From Lysinibacillus macroides (GTDB taxonomy: Bacteria; Bacillota; Bacilli; Bacillales_A; Planococcaceae): DNA of 64,000 bases. The position numbers and the translations under genes were made by a program. Shown here piece by piece: positions 14,069 to 31,647 of the stretch (within the stretch, counting starts at the first letter, position 1; each line of letters opens with the position of its first letter). Where the stretch lies: assembly GCF_001281525.1 (NCBI RefSeq), contig NZ_LGCI01000002.1, positions 1-64,000 on the forward strand. The letters run 5' to 3'. The notes beneath the pieces were generated by a model. It was not told where the DNA came from. It was given only the letters and a program-made list of their open reading frames with translations, and ran no database searches.

Positions 14069-14088
14069 GTAACGCTTCCCCCATATAT

Positions 14089-15015
14089 CTATTTCACAAC
14101 TGCACTGCTTTTCCAATAATGTCTAAAGAATACTACACCTAAACCTAACATCATCCCAATAACTAATCCAATTGCTAAATTTAATAGTTTATTTGGCGAA
14201 GAAGGCTTTTCAGCTAAAGTTGGCTCTGCAATCACTCGAATAAAAGGGTCTGGTTTAAAGCTATCTAATCCTGTTTTAACCGATTGATAATTAGCAAGAG
14301 TTTTACGATATTCTGCTGATTTTGTTTCAATTTGTGCCTGCAATTGTAACAATTGATTTTGTAGATTGCCATTAACGTTCGATAATGTTGCTGCTTGTTC
14401 CTCAGAAATATTTAATACCATTTCTGTATTTAATATTGTTTGTAATATTAATAGTTTAGGTAAATTATTTTCACGGATTATTTGGTTATACTGTTCAATA
14501 ATTGAATCAATTTCTTTTGTTAAAGCAGCAGCTTCTATTTTGTAAGTAGATTCTAAATTTTGTAATGTTAATTGAACAGACTCATTCATTTTTTGCTTTG
14601 TCGCATCCATTAGAATTTGTAATTGTTGTTGTGCTTCTTTGGCCGAATTAGATATAAATTTTAGTTCTACTAAATTCTTCACAGGGTCAGCATCTGCTGT
14701 TGCTACTAAATTTTTTTCATTATATTTAATTTTAATACCTGCATCCTGTAATGCTTGTTGCATAATCGGTTTATTTTGAATACGTTGTGCGTAAATTGTT
14801 GTTGTAAATTCAGTCGCTACATAGTTCGCCATAACTCCTGTATCCTGTACACTGCTCGCTACTTGTACAACTGCCTTGGATTCATATTTTTCATCTAATA
14901 CAAACCAACTTGCAATTCCTGCTAACAACATACATATAATTATACATGTAGATATAATAGCTTTTCCTTTCCAAACAATCTCTAATAATTCCCTTAGCTC
15001 AATTGTCTCTTCCAT
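14089..15015 (-). CDS. Wzz-like polysaccharide chain-length determinant / co-polymerase
   Basis: A 308-residue polysaccharide co-polymerase. A first span lies near residues 18-36, then a long extracytoplasmic region with coiled-coil character, then the Pro-containing segment LAEKPSSPNKLLNLAIGLVIGMML leading into the second span. Such proteins set polymer length with a Wzy polymerase. In many Firmicutes the next gene is a BY-type tyrosine kinase with its own phosphatase; none is seen in this window. It starts one base from the end of the ligase/polymerase-like gene, so the two are coupled. Confidence 0.82.
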   Translation of the reverse strand: MEETIELRELLEIVWKGKAIISTCIIICMLLAGIASWFVLDEKYESKAVVQVASSVQDTGVMANYVATEFTTTIYAQRIQNKPIMQQALQDAGIKIKYNEKNLVATADADPVKNLVELKFISNSAKEAQQQLQILMDATKQKMNESVQLTLQNLESTYKIEAAALTKEIDSIIEQYNQIIRENNLPKLLILQTILNTEMVLNISEEQAATLSNVNGNLQNQLLQLQAQIETKSAEYRKTLANYQSVKTGLDSFKPDPFIRVIAEPTLAEKPSSPNKLLNLAIGLVIGMMLGLGVVFFRHYWKSSAVVK

Positions 15016-16560
15016 TTAACTGCTCCTTATTTTTAAAGTCATTGCTAACAGTATCCCAGCAATAGCCCACATTACTGCTGAAATACCTGGTAAACTATCA
15101 TTAAAGAACCCTTGTATTAAATAAGCTCCCCATGCTATCCCTAACACCCAAACACTAGATTTACTTTGTTTAATAGCCATTTTTAGTGGATTAAATAGTG
15201 ATATCCCTAATAATACAATTATAGATAGAAAACCAACAATTCCTGTACCATATAACCAGCCAACATACATATTATGTGGCTTATCGGTAATTGTATTTTC
15301 ATCATACATACCCGCACGCGCATCAATCGCATAATGAGGGAAATTATACATAAATGTATCCAAACCATAACCAAACAATGGTCGTCCTTTTACTAAATCA
15401 ACACCCTTACTCCAAATATAAGCACGACCAGACCCTGCTGATGTAGCTCTTTCTGGCAACACAGGCAACTCAAATTTCTCTGCTGCATAAGCCTTCATCA
15501 TCCAGTCAAATTCTACCGTATCTTTCAAACTTGTCGCTGGTGTTGGCTGTTCCTTCACATAAGGATTCGATTTTACAACAAACCCTACCGATTCAGTCCA
15601 TACATTAGCATTTTTACTTGCCAGCACATGAAAAACAGGCGCAGTGGCTACTAAAAATACTGCAATCATTACAAAGCTTTGTACTTTTTTCTCTGATCGA
15701 AATGCAACAAATAACACCACAAGCATCATTGCACAAACTGTTAAGAAACCACTTGTTGACACAGACATTAACATTACTGCAATCGACATTACCGCAATTA
15801 TTAAATGCCCTATAGCTCGCCCAATATGTTTTTCTAAAACAGCGGCTGCTAAAAACATTACAGTCATAATCGCAAACATACCACTCATATAGTTCCATTG
15901 ATTCAACGTACCTACCAAAATAGACCCTTCACTAATATTTGCACCAGCAGGTAAAAATGCTTGTACTAATTTTTGAATAGCTGTTTTTTGTAATAAATCA
16001 TGACCATAGAAGTTCATCGTAATAATATATAAATTGATAATTACAAATGGGTATAAAGAGTATAAAACATAGTTTAATACCTTTTTTGGATAGTCAATAT
16101 TCATCGCAATAAAGAACAACGCTAAATAGCATAGCCAGCTAATCGCACCATCAGAACGATTGTATTGACCATGTAAAGCAATTGAAATATTTGGTGAAAA
16201 AATTGTAGATAACACAATGGCTACAGCAAATGCACCGATTGCATAATTTAATTTTGTTTTGTGGATTTTGCCATCCATAAACAAAATTTTTGCCATAAAT
16301 AGTAAAGCTGCTAATACTGTAATAACAACAACTACTAATGCCTTATAGTGTGTAAACATGTCACCCTTTGCTCCACCTGTTAAAGCACTCACATTCGTAA
16401 CTAATGGGGACTGCACCTCTACTACACTCGCCATTACGATTAATGGAACAAATCCAATGACAATCAGAAGTAAGCCAAAAATCCATTTGTCTACAGACTT
16501 TTGTGATTGGAGATCTTCTTCTACGTCACGATAGGTAACTTTTTCGTAAAATTTACTCAT
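15016..16560 (-). CDS. O-antigen ligase/polymerase-like membrane protein (Wzy_C family)
   Basis: A 514-residue protein with roughly 11-12 membrane spans and one large external loop (about residues 300-400). After the loop comes RAYIWSKGVDLVKGRPLFGYGLDTFMYNFPHY, the signature Arg-x3-Trp and G-x-G-x2-x-F region of the WaaL/PglL/Wzy_C superfamily, then KPHNMYVGWLYGTGIVGFL. In this cluster it could be the Wzy polymerase, or a ligase attaching glycan to lipid, wall or protein (an S-layer glycoprotein is possible but untested). Its start overlaps the upstream TPR gene by 8 bases. Confidence 0.8.
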   Translation of the reverse strand: MSKFYEKVTYRDVEEDLQSQKSVDKWIFGLLLIVIGFVPLIVMASVVEVQSPLVTNVSALTGGAKGDMFTHYKALVVVVITVLAALLFMAKILFMDGKIHKTKLNYAIGAFAVAIVLSTIFSPNISIALHGQYNRSDGAISWLCYLALFFIAMNIDYPKKVLNYVLYSLYPFVIINLYIITMNFYGHDLLQKTAIQKLVQAFLPAGANISEGSILVGTLNQWNYMSGMFAIMTVMFLAAAVLEKHIGRAIGHLIIAVMSIAVMLMSVSTSGFLTVCAMMLVVLFVAFRSEKKVQSFVMIAVFLVATAPVFHVLASKNANVWTESVGFVVKSNPYVKEQPTPATSLKDTVEFDWMMKAYAAEKFELPVLPERATSAGSGRAYIWSKGVDLVKGRPLFGYGLDTFMYNFPHYAIDARAGMYDENTITDKPHNMYVGWLYGTGIVGFLSIIVLLGISLFNPLKMAIKQSKSSVWVLGIAWGAYLIQGFFNDSLPGISAVMWAIAGILLAMTLKIRSS

Positions 16561-17074
16561 TATTCGTACCTTCCTCTAATTGTAAATTTTCAATTTGAGC
16601 TAGCAACGATGCTACATGCTCTTGATAATTAGGAATCTCTTCTGGAGCCCAGCCAGCTTCTTGACAGCGTAATAGTACTGTTTTAGCATCCTCAAATCGT
16701 TCAGCACCTACAAAAACTTCGCCTAATTGAATCATAAAGGTTGGGTCTTCCACCTTATATGGATTCAAATCTAATGTTTTTTGCATATGAATAGCAGCCT
16801 GCTTCATATCGCCATTTTGAGCCATAGTTAATGCAGCTACATAATTGGCAATTTCCGCATTTGGCTGTTTCTTTAAAACCTCCGCAATCATTGCCTCTGA
16901 ACCCTCTAAATCACCTGTTGATTGGAGCTGAATGGCTTGATTATATAAAGTCTCTGTCATTAAAAATTTGTCGTCTTGCTTACTTGCCATCACATTTGCC
17001 ACGATTAGACCAATTACAACAAACGCTACTACACCTGACAATATATATTTTCTTATAGGATCTGTAAATATCAT
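16553..17074 (-). CDS. Membrane-anchored TPR protein, likely partner of the ligase/polymerase
   Basis: About 173 residues. An N-terminal signal-anchor (IRKYILSGVVAFVVIGLIVANVMA) is followed by TPR-like helical repeats, for example LYNQAIQLQSTGDLEGSEAMIAEVLKKQPNAEIANYVAALTMAQNGDMKQAAIHMQKTLDLNP. The start MIFTDPIRKY at 17074 is favoured by an AGGAAGG site about 10 bases upstream; a longer start at 17110 lacks one. Wzy_C-type proteins are often encoded beside, or fused to, TPR domains, so a scaffold or chaperone role for the next gene's product is likely. It is the first gene of the minus-strand cluster. Confidence 0.72.
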   Translation of the reverse strand: MIFTDPIRKYILSGVVAFVVIGLIVANVMASKQDDKFLMTETLYNQAIQLQSTGDLEGSEAMIAEVLKKQPNAEIANYVAALTMAQNGDMKQAAIHMQKTLDLNPYKVEDPTFMIQLGEVFVGAERFEDAKTVLLRCQEAGWAPEEIPNYQEHVASLLAQIENLQLEEGTNNE

Positions 17075-17242
17075 TATTTGTCTACCTTCCTCGCATTCTG
17101 TCTTTTGCACATAAAGCTAGTATACTATAAAATGGCTGCTACTTGTAGTCATTTCCCTGTTAAGGATATATTCCTACTTATCAGATTATAATTTTAAAAA
17201 AAGGGTATTCCTCTACTAAAAGGAGGCGGTATCTTAGAGAAA

Positions 17243-18115
17243 ATGACTTTATTTGCAGATGCTTTACAACAATTTTTACAGCATTTATCGTTTAGACAAT
17301 ATAGCCCCGAAACCCTTCGAAGCTATCAAATTGATTTAACACAATTAGCTAATTTTTTAACACAATCCTTTAATGGACCAATTATGCTGGATGAAATCAC
17401 AACTGACCATTTAGAGGCATTCCAGCAGATGCTGATTTTCAACTATTCATCTGTTGCAACCATTAATCGGAAAACACACAGTATGAAAAGCTTATTTAAA
17501 TGGGCATTTTCTAAAAAAATCCTTGAAGATAATTGCGCGCTCGCTATCATCCCACTAAAGCCCCGTACACATGAACGTCATTTTTTAACGGAGGACAAAC
17601 TACAACAATTTTTACAACATATTCCCCACCCAACCATTCGAGTGATTGCTCAGTTTATTGCCAATACAGGATTACGGATTAGCGAATGCACACAGCTATT
17701 ATTAGCCGATGTGGATTTTGAGCAACATCTTGTACATGTCTTACATGGCAAGGGCGATAAATCTCGAACGATCCCATTAAATAATCGTACGGCTCAGCTA
17801 TTACAGCACTATCTTCACACAATTCGCCCTAAAAATAGCGCCTCGCTTTATATTTTTGCGCTTGCTAAAACAGGTAGCATTTCTCCCCAATATATTAACA
17901 GTATTTTGAAAAAGGCTAGTCAACAAATGCAGCATCCACAGCCTATCACTTGCCATATTTTGCGTCATACCTTTGCTAGTAATCTGGTGAAACGCAATAT
18001 TCATATTTCAATTATCCAAAAGCTTCTTGGTCATGCCAATGTTCGAACAACTTCCATCTATATGCATACAGATTTTCATGCGCTACAACAAGCCGTTCAT
18101 TCTTTAGAATCTTAA
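17243..18115 (+). CDS. Tyrosine site-specific recombinase (XerC/D-like) beside the silent S-layer cassette
   Basis: A 290-residue phage-integrase/Xer-type recombinase that cuts and rejoins DNA through a 3'-phosphotyrosine link. The N-terminal core-binding domain spans about 1-95. All catalytic residues are visible: Arg145 (NTGLRISE), Lys170 and Lys173 (HGKGDKSRTIPL), His238 and Arg241 (CHILRHTFAS), His264 (LLGHANVRTT) and Tyr273 (SIYMHTD). AGGAGG lies 16 bases upstream of the ATG, rather far. A lone TATAAT (17187-17192) could be a -10 element. The divergent polysaccharide operon starts on the other side. It stands 12 bases before a putative DNA-binding gene, which runs straight into S-layer homology. 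No phage genes are nearby. A role in S-layer DNA inversion is inferred from position. Confidence 0.92.
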   Translation: MTLFADALQQFLQHLSFRQYSPETLRSYQIDLTQLANFLTQSFNGPIMLDEITTDHLEAFQQMLIFNYSSVATINRKTHSMKSLFKWAFSKKILEDNCALAIIPLKPRTHERHFLTEDKLQQFLQHIPHPTIRVIAQFIANTGLRISECTQLLLADVDFEQHLVHVLHGKGDKSRTIPLNNRTAQLLQHYLHTIRPKNSASLYIFALAKTGSISPQYINSILKKASQQMQHPQPITCHILRHTFASNLVKRNIHISIIQKLLGHANVRTTSIYMHTDFHALQQAVHSLES

Positions 18116-18127
18116 GGAGGCACATTT

Positions 18128-18742
18128 ATGCACTATGATGAAAAAACAACAACTATTTTACAGCAGCTTGAGCAAGGAAAAACACGTCAAGAAATCGCTC
18201 AAACCTACAACCAGCATTGGAAATCTATTGATATGCATATGCGTAGACGAGGGTTTCGTTGGGACAAAGCTCAGCAAATCTATGTAAAACAGCTAACAGC
18301 AACCTCTCCCACAAAAGTACAATCCCTTCTACGCCGATTAGCTACTAAGCAACCAAACTTTAAAAAAATCGCACAGCAACATGGCTTTCACACGGTGGAG
18401 GAAATGGGTCTTTATCTAAAAAAGCAGGGCTATATATGGCATCCTGAGCTACAAAACTACTATTATGTATCCACACCTATTCAACAGGAACATCCCTCTT
18501 CATTTAATGAAACAACATTAATGCAATTTCTTCTTGCTAATCAACAAACACTAACAGCCATGTTAACAAATGCTACACTTATCCCACAAACTATTACAAC
18601 TAATGAAATAACTCTTACAGTTACATCCTCTCTCTATACAACATTAATAGAGCAATGCCAAAAACTACATCTCACGCCTCAAGCCATTATCGAACTAGCA
18701 TTAACACAGTATCTCACTACAATAGATGATAAAAGCAATTAA
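18128..18742 (+). CDS. Putative DNA-binding protein coupled to the recombinase
   Basis: A 204-residue protein of no family I can name. The N-terminus (residues 5-50, TTTILQQLEQGKTRQEIAQTY then WKSIDMHMRRRGFRWD) looks like a helix-turn-helix unit. A second, related unit follows at about 72-120 (KKIAQQHGFHTVEEMGLYLKKQGYIWHPELQNYY). The last 40 residues (VTSSLYTTLIEQCQKLHLTPQAIIELALTQYL) resemble a ribbon-helix-helix. A strong ribosome site (AAGGAGG) precedes it, and it is 12 bases after the recombinase stop, so an accessory or directionality factor is plausible. Its last codons, KSN-stop, lie inside sequence identical to the S-layer gene, meaning the cassette boundary falls within this reading frame. 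Confidence 0.7.
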   Translation: MHYDEKTTTILQQLEQGKTRQEIAQTYNQHWKSIDMHMRRRGFRWDKAQQIYVKQLTATSPTKVQSLLRRLATKQPNFKKIAQQHGFHTVEEMGLYLKKQGYIWHPELQNYYYVSTPIQQEHPSSFNETTLMQFLLANQQTLTAMLTNATLIPQTITTNEITLTVTSSLYTTLIEQCQKLHLTPQAIIELALTQYLTTIDDKSN

Positions 18743-18965
18743 CAACACAACTGTTGAAGTAACATTCGACGATGCACAAACAACTGTAAAAGCGAGCGAT
18801 TTCAGCATTGATGGTTTAGAAATCAAAAATGCAGCAATCAAACAACAAAGTGGTTGTTTTAACAACTGAATCTCAAACGGCTGAGCAAGAATACGTTCTT
18901 TCTTACCAAGATGAAGTAATTGGTGGATTCAAAGGTGTGGCTGCTGTCATCCCTACAGCAATCGA
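18730..18965 (+). repeat. 5' conserved tract of the silent cassette (inverted copy at 30757-30998)
   Basis: The first ~115 bases differ at only four positions from the minus strand of 30998 downward. High similarity then continues to the codons for IPTA, after which the two genes diverge. It is the longest obvious near-identical block shared by the two S-layer loci, in inverted orientation, and so the best candidate crossover region. It contains a short palindrome CAACTGTTG at 18748-18756. Confidence 0.8.
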
Positions 18966-21900
18966 CATCACTGAAAAATCACAACAAGAGGTTGTAGGTA
19001 ACCAAGTAACTGTTAAAGCACAAGTTACTGTAGGTGAAGGACAATCTAAAGCAGGTATTCCTGTGACATTCAACATCGTAAACAACTACGGTGACAACAG
19101 CACAGGTACGTTAAACCAACCAATCGTTGCTGAAGCAAACACAGATGAAAACGGTGTGGCGACTTACACATACACTCGTTATGCACAAACAAGCCAACAA
19201 ATCGCTTCATCTGATGAAGTGCAAGCATATGCAACTGGTAAAGCGTCCGTGCGTTCATTCGCAAAAGTTTACTGGGCGTCGATCAAACCATTAGCAGTGA
19301 CTGCATTAACAGAAGGTAATTCAGTAAACAATGGTGCGAAAAAACAATACAAAGTTAAAGCAGCGTTATACCACACAGAAGGATATACTTCTGCCTTCAC
19401 TGAGAATGGTCAAGTATACCCAGCAGGTAACTATGTAAATATCGCTTTCAAAGAAAACGTTGATGTAACACCTGATAAAGCAGTGAAAACTGTAGATGTT
19501 ATTGATGCAAACGGTAGAAACTTAAGCTACCCAGCTCAATATACAACATCTTTAGGTGATCAAAATGGTACTGTTAAAGTTGTAAAAATCCCAGTTGACA
19601 AAAATGGTGAAGCAATTTTCACATTAACAGGTAAAGATGCTGAAGTAACACCAATCGTATTTGTGGATAATAAAGAAAATCCACAAAATGCAACGGGTAA
19701 CCGTGGTCGCTTCAATGCAACTGAATTATTTGCAGAAGCACCAAAATTAACAATTGGTAAAATCCAAAACTTACAATTAGAATCAATTGGAACTGAATAT
19801 GCAGCTGCTTATATTGGTAGCTTAAATTCAAATGTTTCAACATATACGTATGAAAATGCAGCAGGTGAGAAATTATACCGTGATGCAGCAGGTAACTTAG
19901 CTGTTCTTGCAGCAGGTGGTACACTTCCAGCTAATGCTACTTTCATTAGCCAAAACAGCCCACTACGTGCAGGCGAAATTGTACCAGCAGGATTCACTCA
20001 AAAAAATGTAAATACTACTGTTACAGTTCCAGATTTCAATGCTCATTTCTCAGCTACAAAATCAGTTCACACATACTACAATATTCCTAATGGTGACGCA
20101 GCTTCTAAACAATTAGCTGACGCATTAGTAAATACTGGTGGTCGTGACTATAAAGCTGTATTAAAAGATGAAAATGGTAAACTTGCGCCAACTGGTACAC
20201 AAGTACGTGTATCTGTTGAAATCGGTTCAGGTGTAAAAACAAATAGCGGTCCTGTGTATCTAGTAGATAAAAACTCTAACTCGATTCACCGTCTAACTAC
20301 AAATGCATTTGATGCAGATAAAGTAGTTGTGAACTTAGCAACTGATGCAAAAGGTGAAGTAGCCTTCACATTAATCGGTGGGAAAGATGCATATGCAACA
20401 CCAACTGTATTCACTGAAACAGGCGATAAAGCTGGTTTAGATAAAAATGATTTACAACAAGTTGGCGGTATTGCATACTTCGGTGATGCAATTGTACAAT
20501 CTGCAACATTAACTGTAGATGGTAAAGATGCTCAAACTGTAAGTGTTGGTGATTTAGCAGCATTCTCATACCAAACAGTTGACCAAAACAATAAACACTA
20601 TGACACTTATAACCAAGCAAATCTACGTGTAACATTCCAATTTACATCTACATTCGCTGGTGCAGAGGTATATGCAGCAAGCTCAGTAGTAGATGGTAAA
20701 TTAGTTGCTGGTGCACAACCAATTGGTTATATTAACATGGGTAGCTCAAATACAGCTCCATTCGATATTCCAGCAGTTAATGGTAAAGCAACTGTATATG
20801 TAAAAGCTACACGTGGTACAACAGTAACAGCTACTGCTGGTGCAAATACTCCAGCATTACCACAAGGTTTAACGGCTTCTGCTGTATTTAACTTAAGCAA
20901 CAATGAAGGCGTACAACCAGGTGTACCTGTAACTGGTAAAGTTATCGCAACTGACTTAACAAACAACCGTTTACTATTATTATTAAGTGATGGTGTAACA
21001 GTTCGTGATGTTGATTATAGCGGATCAAATACACAATTCTTTGTTCAAGGTTCTCGTAACTCAGTAACAGAGACTACATTTGTAGATGCTACTAAGAACA
21101 TGGTTGCTGGTGTTAACAACCTATTAGGTAAAGAGGTAACTTTCACATTAGCTAAAGATTCAACTCCAACTAAAGTGGAAAATTCAGGTGTTGATTCTGC
21201 AATTCAATTTAAAGATGGTGCAAAAATCCATTTAACAAATACTAATGCAGTGTATAACTTTGCAACTCCTACAGCACCACGTGGCGTAGTAGGTACAGCA
21301 ACTGAAAAAGTTGATATTTATGTAAATGCTGATAATATTACAGTTAAAAATGCTGATGTAATAGGTACTATTACTGTTGGTGGTCAAGGTTCAAACGCTA
21401 ATGACCAAGATCAAAAAACAGTTCGTACATTTACAGCTGATAATGTAACATTAGATGGTAATGCATATGTTTACACAGCTTCTAAACAAACATTTAACCT
21501 TGTGAATGGATCAAACTTTGCTCGCGTACATTTAGCAAATGCTGAAAAAGTAAACATTGAGAACTCAACAATTGGAGAATTAATTCTTAAAACTACTGGT
21601 GCTGAGATTACTGGTACTAATGGTACTATTAATGCTATCACAACAGCTCCTAATGTTGTCGCACCAATACCGACTGGTACTGTTAACGCGCCAAACCCAA
21701 CATCTGAAACATTGGCTTCAGTAGTAACTACTTCTGCTGACACAGTAACTTTAACTTTTGCAACTGGCTCTAACTTAACAAATAATGATATTTCAGTTAC
21801 TGATGGTACTACTTCAGGTACTGTATCTACTTCAGGTGATACTGCAGTTGTAACATTTGCAGCTCCTGTTGCTGGTAAAACTTTATTTGTAGCAGTTACA

Positions 21901-21981
21901 CAAAATGGTGTTACTAAAGAATACTCAGTAGTTGTAAACTCAACTGTAGGTTCTACAGGTACAGTAACTCGTAAATACTAA
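18730..21981 (+). pseudogene. Silent S-layer gene cassette: no promoter, signal peptide or SLH anchor
   Basis: Similarity to the intact S-layer gene (minus strand 27709-31647) begins abruptly at 18730, matching codon ~217 of that gene, just after its SLH domains. It runs through the Ig-like region (VTVGEGQSKAGIPVTFNIVN), the central domains and the same C-terminal TRKY. The long open frame begins at 18829, but no ribosome site or signal peptide precedes it. Relative to the intact gene, 8 bases are missing near 18841 between AACAA direct repeats. The S-layer frame entering from 18729 therefore hits TGA at 18867. Beyond that, about 1040 codons are open, suggesting the cassette is kept by selection or recent exchange. 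A cryptic S-layer gene is known in Bacillus sphaericus 2362; this resembles it. Confidence 0.88.
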
Positions 21982-21990
21982 TTCTCAAAT
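21967..21990 (+). repeat. 3' conserved box of the silent cassette (inverted copy at 27700-27723)
   Basis: Twenty-four bases covering the last codons (TRKY), the stop and nine bases beyond it are identical to the end of the intact S-layer gene on the minus strand. Sequences differ immediately outside the box on the downstream side. Confidence 0.8.
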
Positions 21991-22024
21991 ATTGAATTTG
22001 ATTATAGTATCTTATAATTACACA

Positions 22025-22063
22025 AAAAGACTCTATAGAGATTTCTCTATAGGGTCTTTTTTG
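22025..22063 (+). terminator. Terminator of the silent S-layer cassette
   Basis: AGACTCTATAGAG and CTCTATAGGGTCT arms with a 6-base loop and a T6 run. It is retained although the gene has no promoter. The IS66 element is inserted right at the end of its T-run. Confidence 0.85.
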
Positions 22064-22150
22064 TAGGGTAAGCGCCAAATACTACACACCTTCTAATAAT
22101 TGCCGAGTTTTGTGATAATCACATTAACATCAATTGTTAGGAGGTTTTTT

Positions 22151-22474
22151 ATGTCACCAGAGGAACGAAAACAGATGTGGCAAGAACGCATCGATGCCTG
22201 TAGATCCAGTGGAGTGCCAAGTGTAAAAGCTTGGTGTAAACAAAATCAAGTAGGTGTCCAAAGTATGTATAGCTGGATGAAACGATTGGATACTGAACCG
22301 ACTCACGTCGCTTATCCTCTTACACAATGGGTTGCCATCGATTCATCCAATTCGATTGAAGAAACATCTACTTTAACAGTTAAGGTAGGAGATGTTTCAA
22401 TTGAAATTAAAGAAGGCTTCAATCATGCACTTTTTAATGAAGTGCTTCAGGTTCTTCAGTCACATGTTAAGTAA
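22151..22474 (+). CDS. tnpA: IS66 TnpA, helix-turn-helix accessory protein
   Basis: A 107-residue protein. The N-terminal helix-turn-helix CRSSGVPSVKAWCKQNQVGVQSMYSWMKRL is the InsA-like DNA-binding module of IS66 elements. The start at 22151 has AGGAGGTTTTTT in front. It is required with TnpB and TnpC for IS66 transposition. Its end overlaps tnpB by 11 bases, suggesting translational coupling. Confidence 0.88.
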   Translation: MSPEERKQMWQERIDACRSSGVPSVKAWCKQNQVGVQSMYSWMKRLDTEPTHVAYPLTQWVAIDSSNSIEETSTLTVKVGDVSIEIKEGFNHALFNEVLQVLQSHVK

Positions 22475-22820
22475 AACACCCATTGAACGAGTCTATTTAG
22501 CGACGGGTTCAACAGATTTGCGAAAGTCGATCGATGGATTGGCAGCGATTGTTCAAATGAGTTTTCAACTGGATCCTTTCTCTTCCAATCTATTTGTCTT
22601 CTGTAATCGCAAACGTGATAAGTTGAAGATTCTCCATTGGGATCATAATGGTTTTTGGTTGTATTATCGTCGTCTTGAAGAAGGCGTTTTTGAATGGCCA
22701 GATGAACAAACAGCTACGCATCTAGCGATTAGTCCTCGCCAATTGAATTGGTTACTTGATGGGATTAGCTATGAACAAAAACAAGCCCATCCAAAAATGG
22801 ATGCAAAAGTTATCATTTAG
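22464..22820 (+). CDS. tnpB: IS66 TnpB (IS66 Orf2-like protein)
   Basis: A 118-residue protein with the IS66 Orf2 signature [61 protein letters not shown] and the final LNWLLDGI. The start [11 protein letters not shown] at 22464 lies inside the end of tnpA; a longer in-frame reading from 22392 covers tnpA sequence and is not needed. Function in transposition is essential in related elements but mechanistically unclear. Confidence 0.9.
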
Positions 22821-22867
22821 AGAGAATTGACCATCTATGTCACCTCTCTTTATGGTATTCTATTTTC

Positions 22868-24463
22868 ATGGAAAAAAATACGCATGAACTACAAGATACA
22901 ATTGAAGAACTCGCAGCAAAAAATGCGGATTTAGAAAAACAAAAAGAAGTCCTAGAGGCAAAAGTAAAATGGTTGGAAGAACAATTCCGACTAAGCCAAC
23001 AAAAGAGATTCGGGACATCTAGTGAAAAAACAAATCCGGATCAAATCGAACTATCTCTTTTTAATGAAGCTGAAATCACAGCGGATGTAAAAGTGGAAGA
23101 ACCTACGCTTGAAACGATTACGTATAATCGAAAGAAGTATGTAGGACAACGAGATGCGAAACTTGAAAACTTGCCTACGGAAACGATTCATTATCGTTTA
23201 TCCGAAGAAGAGCAGGTCTGTTTGTGTTGCGGTGAAACTGTGCATGAAATGAGTACGGAAACGCGACGAGAATTAAGGATTATCCCTGCTCAAGTGAAAG
23301 TCGTGGAGCATATTCAACATATTTACAGCTGTCGTAAATGTGAACGTGAAGGAATCGAAACACCGATTGTCACAGCTAAAATGCCTGCGGCAGTTTTTCC
23401 AAAAAGTCTCGCTTCGCCTTCTTCAATGGCATATATCATGAATCAAAAATACGTAGAAGGAATGCCATTGTACCGAATTGAAAAACAATTTGAACGACTT
23501 GGTGTCTTTCTATCACGCCAAACGATTGCCAACTGGGTAATATATGGTTCAATGAAGTGGCTCTCACCGCTTTACAATCGCTTGCATGAGCTTCTACTTC
23601 AACTTGACCGTCTGCACGCAGACGAAACAACAGTTCAAGTTTTAGCAGAACCCGGAAAGGCTGCAAATTCCAAATCCTATATGTGGTTATACCGATCTGG
23701 CCGTGACATAACACCGATTGTTTTATACGATTACCAGACTTCGCGCCACAGTAAGCACCCAAAGGCATTTCTTAAGGGGTTTTCGGGATACCTTCATGTC
23801 GATGGTTATGCAGGATACCACGATTTGAAGAATGTGGAGTTAGTTGGATGTCTAGCTCACGCACGAAGAAAGTTCGATGAAACGCTCAAATCGTTGCCTG
23901 CCAATGTAGATAAATCTACAACTCTAGCGGCTGAAGGACTCCAATACTGTAATCAATTATTTAAAATTGAGAAACAGATAGATGAGGAAATCAAAAATTG
24001 TAGCCCAGAACAACGGAAAGAAGAACGTCAAAAACGCAGTCAACCCGTGTTGGATGCTTTTTTAGCATGGCTAAAATCAAAACGCCCTCAAGTTCCACCA
24101 AAAAGCAAACTAGGTGAAGCAATTAACTATAGTTTAAACCAATGGCCTAAACTTATTACCTTTATGAAAGATGGGCGTCTTGAAATTGATAATAATAGAG
24201 CGGAGCGTTCTATTAAACCATTCGTTATGGGGAGAAAATCGTGGCTGTTTTCCCAATCTATGAGAGGTGCAACTGCCAGTGCCATTATCTATAGCATTGT
24301 AGAAACTGCCAAAGAGAACCGGTTAAATCCCATGAGCTACTTAAACTATCTTTTTGAACAATTACCACAAATAGATCTAGATGATCAGGAAGCACTTGAT
24401 CAGTTCCTTCCGTGGTCAAAAACCATTCCAAAGGAATGCCGTATTCCTGATAAAGTTAAGTAA
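22868..24463 (+). CDS. tnpC: IS66 TnpC transposase
   Basis: A 531-residue DDE transposase. The N-terminal leucine-zipper coiled coil is at about 5-45, followed by the [15 protein letters not shown] motif and a zinc finger CLCCGE...YSCRKCE (about 118-160). The catalytic core has [23 protein letters not shown] and the final [15 protein letters not shown]. No frame breaks are seen, so the element could be active. It ends 53 bases before the right terminal repeat; a GCCCACCT/AGGTGGGC hairpin at the right end (24478-24500) may stop transcription. Confidence 0.95.
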
Positions 24464-24524
24464 AGAATACACCAATGCCCACCTGAAAAACTAGGTGGGC
24501 ATTATTTTACGCTTACTTTGTAGG

Positions 24525-24653
24525 GAAATAGGTATAAAATAAAAATAGTACATCTTCACGGTATACACGACGAATAGCCATGTTTCCTGTAATTTTTTTC
24601 AGAGAGAGATGGCTATTTTACATAAGTAGCTTGGATCATTTTCGATCAAGATA
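24525..24653. other. Short spacer between IS66 and IS21, no gene found
   Basis: The only structure is an inverted repeat AATAGCCAT (24573-24581) / ATGGCTATT (24609-24617) with a 27-base loop. No open frame of note and no recognisable insertion-sequence end. Confidence 0.4.
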
Positions 24654-24792
24654 TGTACAGCCTGGTTATGGCAAACTAATAATGTACCTTTCGGTCACTA
24701 ATTTATGTATGAAAAAACTACTTGCCAACATTAACCAATAAAGTTACACTCCTCGTTAGACCAATAACGTTTGACAGGAGGTAACATAGGAG

Positions 24793-26291
24793 ATGTTACA
24801 AGTGGTAGAAATTAATTATATCAGACATGAAGTGAATCAAAAAGGGCGTTCTTACAAGGACGTTGCCAAAAGTGTGAAGCACGATTGGCGTACAGTGAAA
24901 AAGTATGCGAACCAAGAGGAATTTCCTCAAACATTAAAACAAAAGCGTAAATCACCAGTGATGGATAAGGTGAAGCCTATTATTGATCAATGGTTAGAAG
25001 AAGATTTGAAGTTCAAGAAGAAGTTCCAACGAACTGCCAAACGAATGTTTACGCAACTAATGGAAGAACACAACTTCGAAGGCTCAGAGCGCTCAGTACG
25101 CCGATATGTAAGTAAGCGTAAGGCGGAGTTGAAGAAGGAGGCAGAAGGAGCGGCATTACCGCTTGAAACTGTACCTGGCACTGCACAAGTAGATTTTGGT
25201 AAAGCCCCTTTCCATTACGGGGGAACGGTCATTGAATTACCTTTCTTAGTGATGTCATTTCCGTTCTCTACTACATTTTATTATCAGGTGTTTCCATCAG
25301 AAAATACGGAGTGTTTTTTAGAAGGGCTTCAACGAATTTTCATGCGATTAGGGAATGTCCCGAAGACGATTCGTTTCGATAACTTATCACCAGCTGTGGT
25401 GAAAATTCATAACAATGGTGAGCGCGATTTAACGGACAGTTTTGAACGGTTTGTCTTACATTATGGTTTTGAAGCTGAATTTTGTAATCCAGGCAGCGGC
25501 AATGAAAAGGGACATGTCGAGAACATGGTGAAATATATTCGCAATAACTTCTTATTGCCAGCCCCTTATTTCACGGACCTAGATGACTTTAATGAACAAC
25601 AATGGCTTCTGGCCGAAAAGGATCAGCTACGTGTGCATTATGAAAAAGAAATTGAACAACGTGTCTTACATCAACAAACAGTGGAAAAACATCTTGTTTT
25701 ACCTGAGAAGCCCTTCCATTGTGGCCGTATTCAACAGTGAAAGCAGATAAATCGGGACTTATTCATTTTGAAACGAAGCTGTACTCCACCTCTCCTCGTT
25801 TCGCACAAAAGAAGGTACTCATTGAAGTTCTTTATAATGAGGTTCGAATTTTAGATGAAGCCTATCAATGTATTGTCCGCCATCCAAGGCTTTACGGTAA
25901 TCAGACCAAATCAATGATTTGGCAACCTTATTTAAAATTAGTAGCTAAAAGACCGAGAGCCATTAAATATTCGGGTGTTTATGATCAGTTACCAGATGAA
26001 TGGCAGCAGTATTTGAAAATGTGTAAAGAAGCGGAGCAAAAAACAGCCTTTTCACTTTTAGCGGAATTAATGACCCATGCCTCTTTTGATGAATTAACTG
26101 AAGCTCTACGTATGGCAAGTGCGATGGGACATCCATCAGTAGAGCAAATTAAACAGGCTTTCCGAGCAAGGAAGTTTAATCAGTAGCCTTATAAATCGAT
26201 TGAGACGAAACCGGCGATCCCTACTTTGCCAGAGGTGACCAGAGGAACAGAGCGATACGATGTATTCTTTGATTCGGAGGTGTCTTCATGA
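24793..26291 (+). pseudogene. istA: IS21 transposase istA with a frameshift and an in-frame stop
   Basis: It begins MLQVVEINYIRHE after AGGAGGTAACATAGGAG. Present are the helix-turn-helix YKDVAKSVKHDWRTVKKYA and the DDE core (PGTAQVDFGKAPF, IRFDNLSPAVVKI, CNPGSGNEKGHVENMVKYIR). The frame ends at 25740, and IstA similarity continues one frame back from about 25719 (VKADKSGLIHFETKLYSTSP), so one base has been lost. That frame meets TAG at 26184-26186, yet sense continues in frame (PYKSIETKPAIPTLPEV) to TGA at 26289-26291, which overlaps the istB ATG as in intact IS21 elements. Two separate lesions argue against programmed frameshifting and for decay. Confidence 0.85.
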
Positions 26292-27004
26292 GCGAATTAT
26301 TAGTAGAGTGCGCCAAGCGTTTGAAATTGAGCCAATTGCGGTCACATATTGAGGAACTAACAGCGGAAGAAGTTCAGTTTTTAGAAAAGCTTTTTACACG
26401 AGAAATTGAGCAACGTGAACAGTCAAAATTAAATCTCTTATTAAAACAAGCGCAGTTGCCGCAAAGTGGCCAAGAGCCGTATGAATGGCAACATGTCCAA
26501 TTACCAAAAACGATTTCGAAGGAGGAGCTCCTTGATGGGGCTTTTCTGGAAAAGCGTGAAAATCTTATTTTGTATGGTGGTGTGGGGACAGGTAAAACGT
26601 ATTTAAGTAAATGTATTGCGTTAAATGCCATAACTAGATACGGCCATAAAGTTCGGTTTTATACGGTCGCTGGACTAGTCAATCAATTGATTGATGCGAA
26701 TCAAAAAGGCCAGCTGAATCGATTAATGAATCAAGTAGATAAGCTGGACCTCTTGATATTAGACGAATTAGGCTATATTCCATTAGGTAAGGAAGGCGCT
26801 GAATTACTCTTCCAAGTGATTTCAATGTGTTATGAGAAGCGCAGCATCATTATCACAACCAATCTGCAATTTGGGCAATGGAATCATGTATTCGGCAATC
26901 AAGTGTTAACAGAGGCAGTTATCGATCGGTTAATCCATCATTCACACCTAACGATTTTTACAGGCGAGAGCTATCGATACCGTCATTCAAGTATTAGAAG
27001 TTAG
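26288..27004 (+). CDS. istB: IS21 helper ATPase IstB
   Basis: A 238-residue AAA+ helper ATPase related to DnaC, which activates IstA and guides target choice. It has Walker A LYGGVGTGKTYLSK (about 98-111), Walker B LDLLILDELGYIPL, sensor IIITTNLQFGQW, and the C-terminal AVIDRLIHHSHLTIFTGESYRYRHS. The frame is intact. The start overlaps the original istA stop by 4 bases. Because istA is broken, IstB is likely a passenger now. Confidence 0.92.
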   Translation: MSELLVECAKRLKLSQLRSHIEELTAEEVQFLEKLFTREIEQREQSKLNLLLKQAQLPQSGQEPYEWQHVQLPKTISKEELLDGAFLEKRENLILYGGVGTGKTYLSKCIALNAITRYGHKVRFYTVAGLVNQLIDANQKGQLNRLMNQVDKLDLLILDELGYIPLGKEGAELLFQVISMCYEKRSIIITTNLQFGQWNHVFGNQVLTEAVIDRLIHHSHLTIFTGESYRYRHSSIRS

Positions 27005-27098
27005 TAAAAATAGTGTTGGCAAGTGGCTACAAAATTAATGTCCATTTTATACATTTTTTAGTTGCCAAATCCACTTTACGATACATTTTTGCGACTCA

Positions 27099-27347
27099 TT
27101 CGGACGACAAGCATTGAATTATCTCAAACAACAGTTAATTGGTCTTGATGATTTTGCCTTTTGAAAAGGACATGATTACGGTATGCTCATTTGTGATTTA
27201 GAGATACATCAACCACTCGCCATCTTACCAGGAAGAACAAGTGAATTAGTTGAAGCTTAGCTTCAATCCCAACTACATGTTCAAACCGTTAGCCGAGATG
27301 GTTCAAGTAGCTACCGTGAAGCTATAACAGAAAAGAATTCAGCCATA
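27099..27347 (+). pseudogene. ISL3-family transposase remnant
   Basis: Reading codons from 27099 gives FGRQALNYLKQQL, then IGLDDFAF-stop-KGHDYG, then LICDLEIHQPLAILPGRTS and VQTVSRDGSSSYREAI, the conserved core of ISL3 transposases. Two in-frame stops (TGA at 27159, TAG at 27258) and missing ends show it is dead. The left edge lies against the IS21 right end and the right edge runs into a long palindrome. Confidence 0.8.
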
Positions 27348-27397
27348 TTTCAAATAATCAACAGCATTTACTCAACAATGCTGTTGATTATTTGAAA
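27348..27397. repeat. Perfect 21-bp inverted repeat with 8-base loop
   Basis: Arms 27348-27368 (beginning TTTCAAATAATCAACAGC) and 27377-27397 are exact reverse complements around TACTCAAC. There is no T-run after the left-to-right reading, so it is not a standard plus-strand terminator. It could be the junction of two head-to-head mobile-element remnants. Confidence 0.85.
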
Positions 27398-27487
27398 AGC
27401 TCCTCTTCAAAATCTGTGACATCTACCAGAGGCATTTCATTTGGTTCAGTGTGTATTTGAATACCCATTGCACTAGACGAAATAAGA
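27388..27487 (-). pseudogene. Possible C-terminal gene fragment
   Basis: On the minus strand, codons read EYLISSSAMGIQIHTEPNEMPLVDVTDFEEELFK-stop, an acidic, protein-like tail. No matching start or upstream part is found; upstream frames are closed. I do not recognise the family. It may be debris of a gene disrupted by the insertion sequences. The rest of 27398-27627 shows nothing else. Confidence 0.25.
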
Positions 27488-27628
27488 TATTCACACTCTC
27501 CCTATCAAGAAAAGGATCCTCTTCTGAACCAAGATAAAAACTATGTATACTTTGAATTCACATTTACGCTTGATCTTCCTTAAATTCCACTCACTTCATT
27601 AGATTACGGACAACCCAATAACCAAACA

Positions 27629-27678
27629 AAAAAGACTGTGACAAACCTAGATAAACTAGATTTGTCAACAGTCTTTAT
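27629..27678 (-). terminator. Terminator of the expressed S-layer gene
   Basis: Long hairpin: CTAGATTTGTCAACAGTCTTT (27656-27676) pairs with AAAGACTGTGACAAACCTAG (27631-27650) with one bulge and one mismatch, followed on the minus strand by a T-run. It lies 30 bases after the stop codon, as expected for a very strongly expressed gene. Confidence 0.85.
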
Positions 27679-27708
27679 ATTATATAACTTGTTCTATTAA
27701 TTTGAGAA

Positions 27709-30700
27709 TTAGTATTTACGAGTGATTGTAGCTGTATTACCTACAGTACCTGCTACTACAGTAAATGTTTTTACTACATTATTTTGAGTGAATTTCACTT
27801 CAAACGTTTTGCCAACTACACCTTCTGCAAGTGTAAATGTTACTGTATCACCAGAAGTTGTTCCAATTGTACCTGGAGTTACAGTTAAGCTAGTTGTGTT
27901 TGCATACGTACCAGCTGTGAATGTTAATGTTACTGTATCACCAGTTGTAGTTGTAGCAGTGAATGGTACTTCTGCAGTTGGTGTTGCATCAACATCTTTT
28001 GGAGTGATTGAAACACCTGGAGCTACAGAAAGTTCATTAACTGTACCAGCACCATCACCCGTTACACCAGTTAAAGTAGAACCGTTTTGTGTAACAAGTA
28101 ATTGACTGATATTAGAACCACCAGCTAATGCAACGTGTTCTGGAATGTTTAATACCACACGGTTTAAGCTAGAATTACCAGTGATAACGAATGTATTACC
28201 ATCACCTTGGTTAACTGTTACTGTACCTGTAACTTCTACATTGTTTAATGCAAAGTCGTTAAGAACTTGTTGTACAGAGGCATTTGTGCGTCCTACTGTT
28301 ACATTACCATAGATTTTCACATTGCTAAGTTTAATGTTATCTCCATTGATTTGGAAATCAGCATCTACTAATGCTCTACCAGTTGCATCAAGATATCCTG
28401 CTGGAGCATTATGAGCAAAATCATACTCTTTAAGTGTTGACGTATAGTCACCTTCAATGATGAATGTATTACGTTTTGCAATTACTTTGTCATTATCAAC
28501 TCGAATTCCTGATTGGATATCTAAGTTATCAAACTTCGCTTTGCTGTTCGCATCAGCTTTTTGTGTGAAGAATAATTCATCACCAACATTCAAATGAGCT
28601 TCAAATGTTGCTTCAGATGCACCAGAAGCACCTTTGTAATATAGTTCATCTGCTTCATACTTCAAGTCGTAAACTTTTTCGCCTCGTGAATCTGTTAATA
28701 AAATACGGTTATTCTCTTTATCTACAGCAATCACTTTACCACGTACAGATTGTCCGTATGCGATACCTTCATTGTTTAATGAAGTGAATGAAGCGCTTGC
28801 GTTTAACACTGGTAAATTGTGTGCGCTTGCTGTTACATCAACGCGGTTTCCACGTACAGATTTTACTTTCAGATCCGCTTTACCATTTGTTGATTTTACA
28901 TCAAATGATCTTGTGCTACCTTGATTTACAGTTTCCACACGTAAAGCACCATTACGGTCAGTGTATTCTACAGTAGCTGGCGAGAATGTTGTTGATACTT
29001 GGAAAGTAGCAATAAAATCAGTACTGTCTTTTACATGATAGTGCTTTTTGTTTTGATCTGTTGATTGATACGAGAATGTTACTTCTTCTGCAACAGATTT
29101 AGAAGTCGTATCTTCGTTATCAATTGTTAATTTCGCACTATTGATTGTACGGTCACCGAAGTATACGATTTCGCCTGCTTCTTGTGCATCATTTGTATCT
29201 AGTCCATCTTTATCACCAGTTTCTACAAATGCTGTTGGTGTTGCATAGCTATCACGACCACCAATTACTGTGAATGATACTTGACCTTTCGCATCAGTTG
29301 ATAAAGAGAATGTTTCTTTCTCTTTTGAGAAATCACTCACTTTATATACTGTGTGTGAGTTATTATCAATGAAGTAAATTGGCGTTACTGATGCTGTCGC
29401 AGTAGTTTTTGCTGAACCATATTTTAATTCAACTTTCACCACTTGCCCCGCCTGTGCCGCTTTACCATCTTTATCTGTGTAAGATACTTTGTAATCACGA
29501 CCACCTGTATTTGTTAAATCAGCAGCAAGTGCTTCATTTTTCTCTTTTACTGAGCCAGTGTAAGAATATTTAGAAAGGTGTGTGTTAGAAAGTTGGTTCG
29601 TTTTTCTAGTTGGGAATTTACCAGCACCTTCTAAAGCAACTACACCTGTTACAACCGCATTATTACCAAGTTCTGTATAAACGAAACCTGATGGTACTCT
29701 TTCATCAGAACGAAGTGGGTTAGTGTTGTTAATGATAGTTGAGCCATTTGGAACTGGTAGGCTTGCACCTGTTAATTGTCCATTTGGATCACGAACTAAT
29801 ACTAAATTTCCGTTGCGGTATTCGTAACGACCTGTACGATCAAAGCTTTCTTCATATGCAGATGCATCTTTTGTGCCAAGTGATTCAACTTTCACACTTA
29901 ACACTTGCTCTTTTGCAAATGTAAGTGGTGCTGCAAATGCTGCTAATTCTGTTTTATCAAAACGATCAATTGTTGCATTTGTATTACCTACTGCATCATC
30001 AACCCATACAAATGGTGTTACAGTTTGATTTGAACCAGTTAATGTGAATGTAGCTTCACCTTTAGCATCTAATTTAACTCGTACAGCGTTGAAACGATTT
30101 GTTTCAGTTGAATTAGTTGTTGTGAATTGACCTGGGTAACCTAAAGTAATTCCAGTAGTATTATCTGTTACTGTTACATTTTTATTTGCTTTATCTGGTG
30201 CAACGTTTACGTTATCCAAGTAACCAACGTTGATGTCACGCGAGCCATATTTCTTTTCTAATTCAGCGGCATTATTTACGCCAGCTACTTTTACTTTATA
30301 AACTTTTTTCGCACCATTGTTTAATTTATTACCTGTTGTTACTTCAGTAATTGTTAATGGTTGTGTGTTTGCCCAGTATACTTTTGTGAAGTCACGTGCA
30401 GTTGGATTACCCGTTGCATATACTTGTACTTCGTCACTTGTGTTTAAATCTTGAGATGTTGCAGCATAACGAGTATATGCGTATGAAGCTACACCATTTT
30501 CATCTGTAAGTGCTTCAGCTACGATTGCTGGGTTTAAACCACCGCTTGGGTTTTTATTATCAGAACCTTGAGCATTCACGATGTTAAATGTTACAGGAAT
30601 ACCTGCTTTAGATTGACCTTCTCCAACTGTTACTTGTGCTTGTACAGTCACTTGTGTACCAAGTGGTGCCTGTTGCGATTTGTGTGATTTAACTTGTGTA

Positions 30701-31647
30701 GTTGTTTCTTTACCAATTTCGCCTTCTACTACTGGATTTTCAAATTCAACTGCTGTTACAGCTGTTGGAATAACCGCAGCCACACCTTTGAATCCACCGA
30801 TTACTTCATCACGGTAAGAAAGAGTATATTCTTGCTCAGCCGTTTGAGATGCAGTAGTTAAGACAACCACTTTGTTGTTAGATTGTTTGATTGCTGCATT
30901 TTTGATTTCTAAACCATCAATGCTGAAATCGCTAGCTTTTACAGTTGTTTGTGCTTCGTCAAATGTTACTTCAACAGTTGTGTTATTAATTGCTTTTACA
31001 GATGATGCTTCAACTACTTCTTCGTTCTCTTCTAAGTTAAGTGTACGTTGGAATGTTAAAGCAAAGTCTTGACGAGTGATTGTGTTGTTAGGGTTAAGAC
31101 GGTTTGTGTCAGTACCTTGGAAAATGCCGTTTGCTACAGCGATTTCTAGGTATTGCTTAGCCCAAGGTTTGATTGAAGAAGAGTCAGCAAATCCATCTAC
31201 ACTTGCGTCACCTTCTAAACCGAAAGCTTCTACTAAGATTTTAGCAGCTTCTGAACGAGTTAAAGATTTGCTTGGTGCGAATTCAGTTGTGCTTACACCT
31301 TCAAAAATTCCGTGTTCTACAACCGCTGTGATTGAGTTGTAGTACCAAGCGCCTTTTTTAACGTCCTTGAAGTTTACGTCTCCACTAGCGTCTAAATCTA
31401 AAGCTTTTGCGAAGATTTCAGCAGCTTCTGCACGAGAAATTGTATTTAGTGGGTTGAAGTTCCCTTTAGCATCACCTTGAATTACGCCAGAGTCTACTAA
31501 AGCTTGAACTGCCTCTTTCGCGTACCCAGAAACTTTATTTAAATCATTTACTTGCGCAGCAGATGCTACAGGAACGATTGCTGATGCAACTAATGCAGCT
31601 GTTGCTGATGCCGCGAAGAACTTACGGCCTTTGTTTTGCTTTGCCAT
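27709..31647 (-). CDS. S-layer protein with three SLH wall-anchoring domains
   Basis: A 1312-residue secreted surface-layer protein that forms the outer crystalline coat. The signal peptide covers residues 1-30 (KFFAASATAALVASAIVPVASA). Three SLH domains follow at about 34-73 (GYAKEAVQALVDSGVIQG), 91-137 (WYYNSITAVVEHGIFEG) and 150-197 (PWAKQYLEIAVANGIFQG). They bind pyruvylated cell-wall polymer; the csaB gene for that is at 38.7 kb. From codon ~217 a long region of Ig-like and beta-rich repeats extends to the C-terminal TRKY. Start at 31647 has AGGGAGGAATACATTA, an excellent ribosome site. It lies downstream of a promoter with a ~190-base leader. The part after codon 217 has a silent counterpart at 18730-21981 in opposite orientation. 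It resembles the 125-kDa S-layer protein family of Lysinibacillus sphaericus. Confidence 0.95.
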   Translation of the reverse strand: MAKQNKGRKFFAASATAALVASAIVPVASAAQVNDLNKVSGYAKEAVQALVDSGVIQGDAKGNFNPLNTISRAEAAEIFAKALDLDASGDVNFKDVKKGAWYYNSITAVVEHGIFEGVSTTEFAPSKSLTRSEAAKILVEAFGLEGDASVDGFADSSSIKPWAKQYLEIAVANGIFQGTDTNRLNPNNTITRQDFALTFQRTLNLEENEEVVEASSVKAINNTTVEVTFDEAQTTVKASDFSIDGLEIKNAAIKQSNNKVVVLTTASQTAEQEYTLSYRDEVIGGFKGVAAVIPTAVTAVEFENPVVEGEIGKETTTQVKSHKSQQAPLGTQVTVQAQVTVGEGQSKAGIPVTFNIVNAQGSDNKNPSGGLNPAIVAEALTDENGVASYAYTRYAATSQDLNTSDEVQVYATGNPTARDFTKVYWANTQPLTITEVTTGNKLNNGAKKVYKVKVAGVNNAAELEKKYGSRDINVGYLDNVNVAPDKANKNVTVTDNTTGITLGYPGQFTTTNSTETNRFNAVRVKLDAKGEATFTLTGSNQTVTPFVWVDDAVGNTNATIDRFDKTELAAFAAPLTFAKEQVLSVKVESLGTKDASAYEESFDRTGRYEYRNGNLVLVRDPNGQLTGASLPVPNGSTIINNTNPLRSDERVPSGFVYTELGNNAVVTGVVALEGAGKFPTRKTNQLSNTHLSKYSYTGSVKEKNEALAADLTNTGGRDYKVSYTDKDGKAAQAGQVVKVELKYGSAKTTATASVTPIYFIDNNSHTVYKVSDFSKEKETFSLSTDAKGQVSFTVIGGRDSYATPTAFVETGDKDGLDTNDAQEAGEIVYFGDRTINSAKLTIDNEDTTSKSVAEEVTFSYQSTDQNKKHYHVKDSTDFIATFQVSTTFSPATVEYTDRNGALRVETVNQGSTRSFDVKSTNGKADLKVKSVRGNRVDVTASAHNLPVLNASASFTSLNNEGIAYGQSVRGKVIAVDKENNRILLTDSRGEKVYDLKYEADELYYKGASGASEATFEAHLNVGDELFFTQKADANSKAKFDNLDIQSGIRVDNDKVIAKRNTFIIEGDYTSTLKEYDFAHNAPAGYLDATGRALVDADFQINGDNIKLSNVKIYGNVTVGRTNASVQQVLNDFALNNVEVTGTVTVNQGDGNTFVITGNSSLNRVVLNIPEHVALAGGSNISQLLVTQNGSTLTGVTGDGAGTVNELSVAPGVSITPKDVDATPTAEVPFTATTTTGDTVTLTFTAGTYANTTSLTVTPGTIGTTSGDTVTFTLAEGVVGKTFEVKFTQNNVVKTFTVVAGTVGNTATITRKY
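30757..30998 (-). repeat. 5' conserved tract in the expressed S-layer gene (inverted copy at 18730-18965)
   Basis: Reading the minus strand from 30998, the sequence starts TAAAAGCAATTAATAACACA and stays nearly identical to the start of the silent cassette until the codons for IPTAV. It marks the shift from the fixed SLH anchor to the variable exposed region of the protein. Confidence 0.8.

Follow-up and report, generated by a model that had tools for sequence, protein, structure and literature searches.

Does the S-layer locus of Lysinibacillus macroides hold two alternative outer parts of one S-layer protein, and could the recombinase encoded beside them exchange the two? The stretch of DNA analysed here (the window; 64,000 nucleotides) lies on contig C9 of an assembly of 15 contigs and 4.87 Mb. 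A two-allele S-layer switch, worked by recombinase-driven inversion between two short core sites, was the reading that we favoured, with a probability of about 0.62.

Layout of the S-layer Locus

From left to right, the window encoded a TPR-repeat protein (16553–17110, minus strand), a tyrosine recombinase (17243–18115, plus strand), a protein of 204 residues termed orf204 (18128–18742, plus strand) and an S-layer cassette (18730–21981, plus strand). Homologues of the TPR-repeat gene flank the S-layer locus in Metasolibacillus meyeri, G008, G013, G001, and G005. To the right of the cassette were an IS66-type insertion sequence (22100–24463, plus strand), an IS21-type copy (24793–27004, plus strand) and a full S-layer gene of the expressed type (27709–31647, minus strand; 1312 aa) with three SLH domains and a signal peptide recognized by eye. 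Beyond it lay an SLH/SH3 gene, for which a glucosaminidase match fell below threshold, then a WecG/TagA-family gene. The cassette (allele group X) was without a start, signal peptide or SLH anchor, and its ORF, 1050 codons from 18829, stood behind a frame-breaking 8-base gap near 18846. A Pfam search of this ORF gave zero matches, SLH included. The expressed gene carried allele group Y.

The sequence-only reading of this DNA had overlooked the insertion sequences between the two S-layer genes. The IS66-type element contained a transposase ORF (22868–24463) and two small preceding ORFs assigned by position. The IS21-type element contained a whole istB (Pfam E 1.6e-60) and a region of two overlapping ORFs, presumably istA from its position; the second ORF matched Mu-transpos_C_2 (E 2.3e-10) and the first had no Pfam match.

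The Recombinase and orf204

A complete tyrosine recombinase followed by a small protein gene directly before the cassette had been proposed, and both were found. The intact recombinase (290 aa) matched Phage_integrase (E 2.4e-36) and contained R145, K170, H238, R241, H264, and Y273, which we take to be its catalytic residues. This family match and the R-K-H-R-H-Y set placed it among the Xer-type recombinases. Its best relatives of solved structure were XerA, a XerC-like protein, and XerD, and it scored far under the curated NCBIfam cut-offs for XerC and XerD proper. The small gene was orf204, a conserved partner of the recombinase, whose final codons overlap the core site. No Pfam family matched orf204 at E ≤ 0.001, and hence no Pfam HTH; its best NCBIfam match had an E of 0.012 and its best PHROG was a family of unknown function (E 0.0013), so that we call it only a putative DNA-binding protein.

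Carriage by plasmids or phages was rejected on searches of plasmid, phage, and viral records. One plasmid record matched the window recombinase at E ≤ 1e-30 (28.7%), while 23 matched the recombinase of a second system in the genus (class A, below), all under 60% identity and, among the matches listed, at 24.9–30.6%. The phage records searched for orf204 gave zero matches. Among viral contigs 75 stretches fit a peptide pattern, and none encoded a relative.

Inverted Repeats and the Core Site

The two S-layer regions faced each other as inverted repeats. The first pair of arms (18730–18845 and 30883–30998) was 116 nt long and 97% identical; the next (18828–18959 and 30761–30892) was 132 nt long and 87% identical. 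A single gapped alignment of the arms covered 238 columns at 89.5% identity, with 17 mismatches and eight gap positions, far beyond a chance repeat. The borders of the homology were sharp, at 18730 on the left and 30998 on the expressed side. The sequence-only reading had the plus-strand cassette opening at 18730 with the sequence at which the minus-strand gene leaves its SLH anchor at 30998, and the two copies facing each other with four mismatches in the first ~115 bases; the alignments agreed, with four mismatches in the 116-nt arms. The core site was taken as the 31 nt from the left border (18730–18760, plus strand), with its counterpart directly after the SLH domains of the expressed gene (30968–30998, minus strand); the two differed at one position. 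One site was thus inside the expressed gene and one at the silent copy, the arrangement of a surface-protein inversion switch.

Weaker inverted homology ran across both S-layer genes in blocks of 73–79%. Their shared 3′ end (21943–21990 and 27700–27747) was 90% identical over 48 nt, closer than the parts preceding it. Because the homology extends to this end, the two regions are diverged homologues along the whole cassette. The description of the cassette as promoterless rests on its position; a consensus promoter scan, with 54 found against 48.4 (sd 6.9) expected, was uninformative. The window repeats were 97% and then 87% identical, compared with near-perfect repeats of ~900–1200 bases in four relatives with another recombinase. 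Since the window repeats are not identical, no very recent exchange is indicated there.

Frame and Constraint of the Silent Cassette

In the assembly sequence the silent copy was short of eight bases relative to the expressed copy after 116 bases, a gap that the sequence-only reading had overlooked as well. Read in the anchor frame from the core it reached a stop after 44–45 codons, so that a flip at the core would now yield a truncated S-layer protein. A crossover further into the cassette would bypass the gap. It had been proposed that inverting 18730–30998 would exchange the exposed regions. The predicted exchange behind a fixed promoter region, signal peptide, and anchor was supported, and the alleles of M. 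meyeri were found swapped; in the window a flip would not give an intact alternative protein, but in M. meyeri it would, since the silent cassette there was open for 982 codons in the anchor frame. We propose that the switch of the window now works in one direction only, or as ON/OFF.

Of the one-step codon changes found only in the silent cassette, 46 were nonsynonymous and 112 synonymous, compared with 24:60 and 31:73 in two expressed homologues. The dN/dS of the silent copy was 0.28 against G001 and 0.27 against G005, and 0.28 between G001 and G005. With the more distant expressed gene of M. meyeri as partner, the silent copy gave 0.41 and G001 gave 0.36. By these values the cassette shows the same constraint as expressed genes, and it has probably been expressed through much of its recent history.

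These values bear on whether the window holds only the decaying remains of a former switch or element, locked by now and retained until it is lost. The frame break and the two insertion sequences between the S-layer copies are what such a relic would show, and decay occurred elsewhere: in G008 and G013 the recombinase was broken and the module decayed. In the window, however, the recombinase, orf204, and 1050 cassette codons were intact, and the cassette changes were constrained like those of expressed genes. We consider a relic unlikely.

Reciprocal Alleles in Metasolibacillus meyeri

A scan of named genomes for the orf204 family returned five loci, the best in M. meyeri WS4626. Its gene order was that of the window: TPR-repeat gene, recombinase, orf204, silent cassette (plus strand), and expressed gene (minus strand). 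The recombinases were 68% and the orf204 proteins 66% identical. The M. meyeri expressed gene was 65% identical to the silent cassette of the window over the cassette length, and 37% identical to the expressed gene of the window. The other four loci (two in Metalysinibacillus jejuensis, one in Bacillus sp. SJS, and one in a Clostridia MAG) contained the recombinase and orf204 and no recognizable S-layer cassette in the stretch examined; at both M. jejuensis loci the contig stopped just behind orf204.

A tree of the C-terminal parts (13 rows; the part behind residue 330) joined the expressed copy of the window with the silent copy of M. meyeri (97/98), and the silent copy of the window with the expressed copy of M. 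meyeri and the expressed genes of G001 and G005, one in each (100/100). The expressed gene of G013 joined both at 81/88. In a tree of the anchor parts (11 rows) a split supported at 100/100 separated the expressed genes of the window and M. meyeri; that of M. meyeri drew a long-branch warning. Similar exposed parts are thus carried on dissimilar anchors. The two allele groups were in opposite positions: the group silent in the window was expressed in M. meyeri, and the group expressed in the window was silent there.

A comparison of orientation among relatives had been suggested as a check, and M. meyeri, a member of another genus, carried the swapped alleles that one inversion would give. No second strain of the window's own species turned up in the genomes searched. 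A single inversion between the two lineages would explain the swap; separate acquisition of the two alleles, or gene conversion, could also account for it but would need more steps. Two comparisons speak against a simple history. The group Y pair (window expressed, M. meyeri silent) was only ~43% identical. Over the last ~100 alignment columns the expressed copy of the window was nearer to the silent copy of the window (50%) than to that of M. meyeri (30%), and this likeness at the 3′ end points to some gene conversion. The two M. meyeri cores were identical across 31 nt and diverged on both sides, within a 1.1-kb repeat that was 69% identical overall. Both carried a T where both window copies carried an A.

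The Core Site Across Relatives

In seven species the silent cassette began at one shared codon behind the SLH domains (the window, M. meyeri, G007, G226, G255, G260, and G206), and the sequence upstream of this codon differed among them. Six of the seven cassettes adjoined related recombinase-orf204 pairs; no expressed partner was found for that of G206. Similar cores were present at three other borders of the module: in an SLH protein, at a point more distant from the anchor (G195), in a protein containing an Ig-like domain (G172), and in an unidentified protein (G218). In G261 (L142/L153) the module bordered a flagellin, and Pfam flagellin domains flanked the element to the left and right. 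This element sat between a flagellin gene and a second flagellin without its first codons, ~51% identical, and the flagellin core was like the others in part only.

In total, 13 cassette-side sites were examined, 12 beside a recombinase and orf204 and one beside a four-recombinase array. The cassettes were open in frame from the core at 12 sites (366–1011 codons); the window, with its early stop, was the thirteenth. Eight of the 13 had no start codon in the open stretch ahead of the core. The expressed-side row of G007, which was misaligned, was not used. The motif GGTT, first picked by eye, occurred at one fixed upstream distance at seven of the 13 sites, those of the window, M. meyeri, and G007 not among them; in 2000 single-base shuffles no four-letter word exceeded a count of four, whatever its offset within 60 nt.

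Distribution and Probable Integrative Elements

The orf204 family was present in 20 of 261 genomes of the family, at 22 places; the order-level search covered the same 261 genomes. All places except that of G151 were classified (21 of 22). Ten contained a cassette and a matching full gene (the window; G094, taken as M. meyeri on coordinates that match to within a few bases; G007, G226, G255, G172, G195, G260, G218, and G261), the cassette of G218 standing behind a transposase gene. Two (G170, G272) contained a frame-open ORF at a like core, with no partner found in the stretch examined, and no cassette was seen at six (G019, G281, G220, G197, G236, and G008). The remaining three, all in G089 (L136, L138, and L139), ended with their contig within 151 bases of orf204, and a repeated sequence behind orf204 could cause such assembly breaks.

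The ten matched places comprised two in inverted orientation (the window and M. meyeri) and eight in direct orientation (G007, G226, G255, G172, G195, G260, G218, and G261), so that inversion is not the sole possible outcome of the module. In the eight direct places the recombinase and orf204 formed the right end of a longer stretch between the full gene and the cassette. This stretch contained a second tyrosine recombinase in all eight and a DUF927-type protein in seven, with no match in G261. These stretches are probably integrative elements.

A recombinase tree (30 rows; one class A row, G017, left out) placed the M. meyeri recombinase as sister of the window recombinase (100/100), within a group that also contained G226, G255, G007, G218, G019, and G089a (97/96). 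The recombinase of G260 grouped with those of G195 and G170 although its cassette border was the post-SLH border, which rules out one exclusive clade of recombinases at that border.

We give about even odds to a family of integrative elements in the Caryophanaceae, with two tyrosine recombinases, usually a DUF927-type protein, and orf204. Such elements would attach at a short core inside genes for surface antigens: S-layer genes past the SLH anchor, genes of other surface proteins, and flagellin genes close to their start. Each would bring along a frame-open but startless end to replace that of the resident gene. Entry, exit or inversion would change the outer protein, and the window and M. 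meyeri would be a domesticated, inversion-type form. Searches of open-licence full texts listed no paper on the recombinase-orf204 module.

The eight direct places, with the pair at the right end of an element between full gene and cassette, also suit another account, in which a mobile element entered an S-layer gene by means of this recombinase, its integrase. The cassette would then be no more than the 3′ part that the insertion cut off, and the inverted layout would have arisen later by accident. This account agrees with the inversion switch on origin but not on what the locus does today. Against it, the window and M. meyeri kept the recombinase and orf204 without the other element genes, and they share the inverted layout with swapped alleles. 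We consider it unlikely.

A Second Recombinase System in the Genus

Class A loci were found in five of the 32 genomes of the genus (G017, G020, G022, G024, and G030). Their S-layer copies are convergent and enclose another recombinase and an HTH_3 protein. The class A recombinase was ~25% identical to that of the window (three compared), and five genomes outside the genus encoded more distant homologues of the HTH protein. At four class A loci the copies were identical or nearly so for ~900–1200 bases from a sharp 5′ border and then diverged; the G017 locus was on an 8.3-kb contig cut inside the copies. In G030 the border was directly behind TTGACA-17-TATACT, as judged by eye. A working switch would be expected to look like this, but all four loci shared one orientation relative to the HTH gene, which speaks against inversion.

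The class A silent alleles (L073–L076, L080) of G020, G024, and G030 and one G017 copy were 73–86% alike in their last 450 residues; the silent copy of G022 and the expressed copies differed from this group. At L104, L105, and L106 (G181, G206, and G193) an HTH protein was found with four tyrosine recombinase ORFs in a row, followed in G206 by the S-layer cassette that starts at the shared post-SLH border. Four tandem tyrosine recombinase ORFs (12282–15762) were also found downstream of an S-layer gene at L079 (G029).

It is quite improbable that homologous recombination or gene conversion alone shuffles the exposed parts, with the recombinase incidental: homology does reach beyond the core, the 3′ ends of the window copies are alike and the long class A repeats would suffice for RecA, but seven species' silent cassettes start at one codon, six of them by related recombinase-orf204 pairs, M. 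meyeri has identity only over the 31 nt at the core, and further genes, among them a flagellin gene, are bordered by this pair at comparable sites.

A Proposed Mechanism

Inversion is, with moderate confidence, the best reading for this type of locus. In this model the promoter, signal peptide, and SLH anchor of the expressed gene are fixed, the core lies in the linker that follows the anchor, and the exposed part beyond the core can be exchanged. Its alternative would be parked head-on from the same core, next to the recombinase. We infer that the recombinase, probably aided by orf204, acts on the two cores and flips the intervening 12.3 kb, so that the exposed parts change places; it and orf204 would remain outside the flipped segment. 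In line with this, G008 and G013, whose recombinase is broken, showed no second S-layer copy in the 19.5 kb around it (tblastn for G008 only). The pair is common to the probable integrative elements that use a like core, and the window may be an inverted, possibly immobilized, derivative of a C-terminal-exchange element.

Comparison with Known Systems

In Campylobacter fetus active and silent S-layer genes (sap) are interchanged through inversion of a promoter-carrying segment. In Lactobacillus acidophilus an inversion at slp reportedly interchanges active and silent S-layer genes, as Boot is said to have described in 1996. The recombinase and site types of both systems probably differ from those of the window, where the start of the expressed gene (31647) and its upstream sequence lie outside the repeats. 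Exchange of C-terminal coding segments by a tyrosine recombinase (Rci) occurs in the R64 shufflon, with repeats in arrays, and prophage e14 carries a replacement end, a very short one, for icd. Their targets are a pilus tip and a metabolic enzyme, in contrast to an S-layer protein or flagellin here.

The Mycoplasma vsa, vpma, and vsp loci, as described in PMC2268961, likewise have a tyrosine recombinase (HvsR, Xer1, or Mbr) by the locus and one promoter, and exchange surface proteins via inversion; in that description the vpma sites are in the 5′ untranslated region, six lipoprotein genes are involved, and there is no SLH anchor. In Clostridioides difficile, according to the account in PMC2784873, the XerC/XerD-type recombinase RecV inverts DNA controlling the cell-wall protein CwpV. 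The inverted segment there, 195 bp in length, is upstream of cwpV and not a coding part, and recV is not near cwpV.

The S-layer genes of Bacillus sphaericus JG-A12 and NCTC 9602 have the copies sllB and sllA (Pollmann et al., 2005, via PMC3573754). As outlined there, the element downstream of a chromosomal S-layer gene contains genes for a recombinase and an HTH protein together with an S-layer-like copy; a silent S-layer copy with such genes is thus already published for this species. The window is similar in layout, but its orf204 has no Pfam HTH match at E ≤ 0.001. Compared by description, this fits the class A relatives, with their HTH_3 protein and ~25% identical recombinase, better than the window, and the outline in PMC3573754 mentions no inversion, core site or fixed border.

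Significance

Transfer and rearrangement have been held responsible for S-layer variation in the B. sphaericus group, with no mechanism named in the account consulted (PMC4902306). The present analysis names a specific site, a recombinase and a partner gene, for which an allele swap across genera provides comparative evidence. Other surface proteins, among them a flagellin, are bordered by this module too. How these silent S-layer genes are used is a long-standing question that becomes directly testable.
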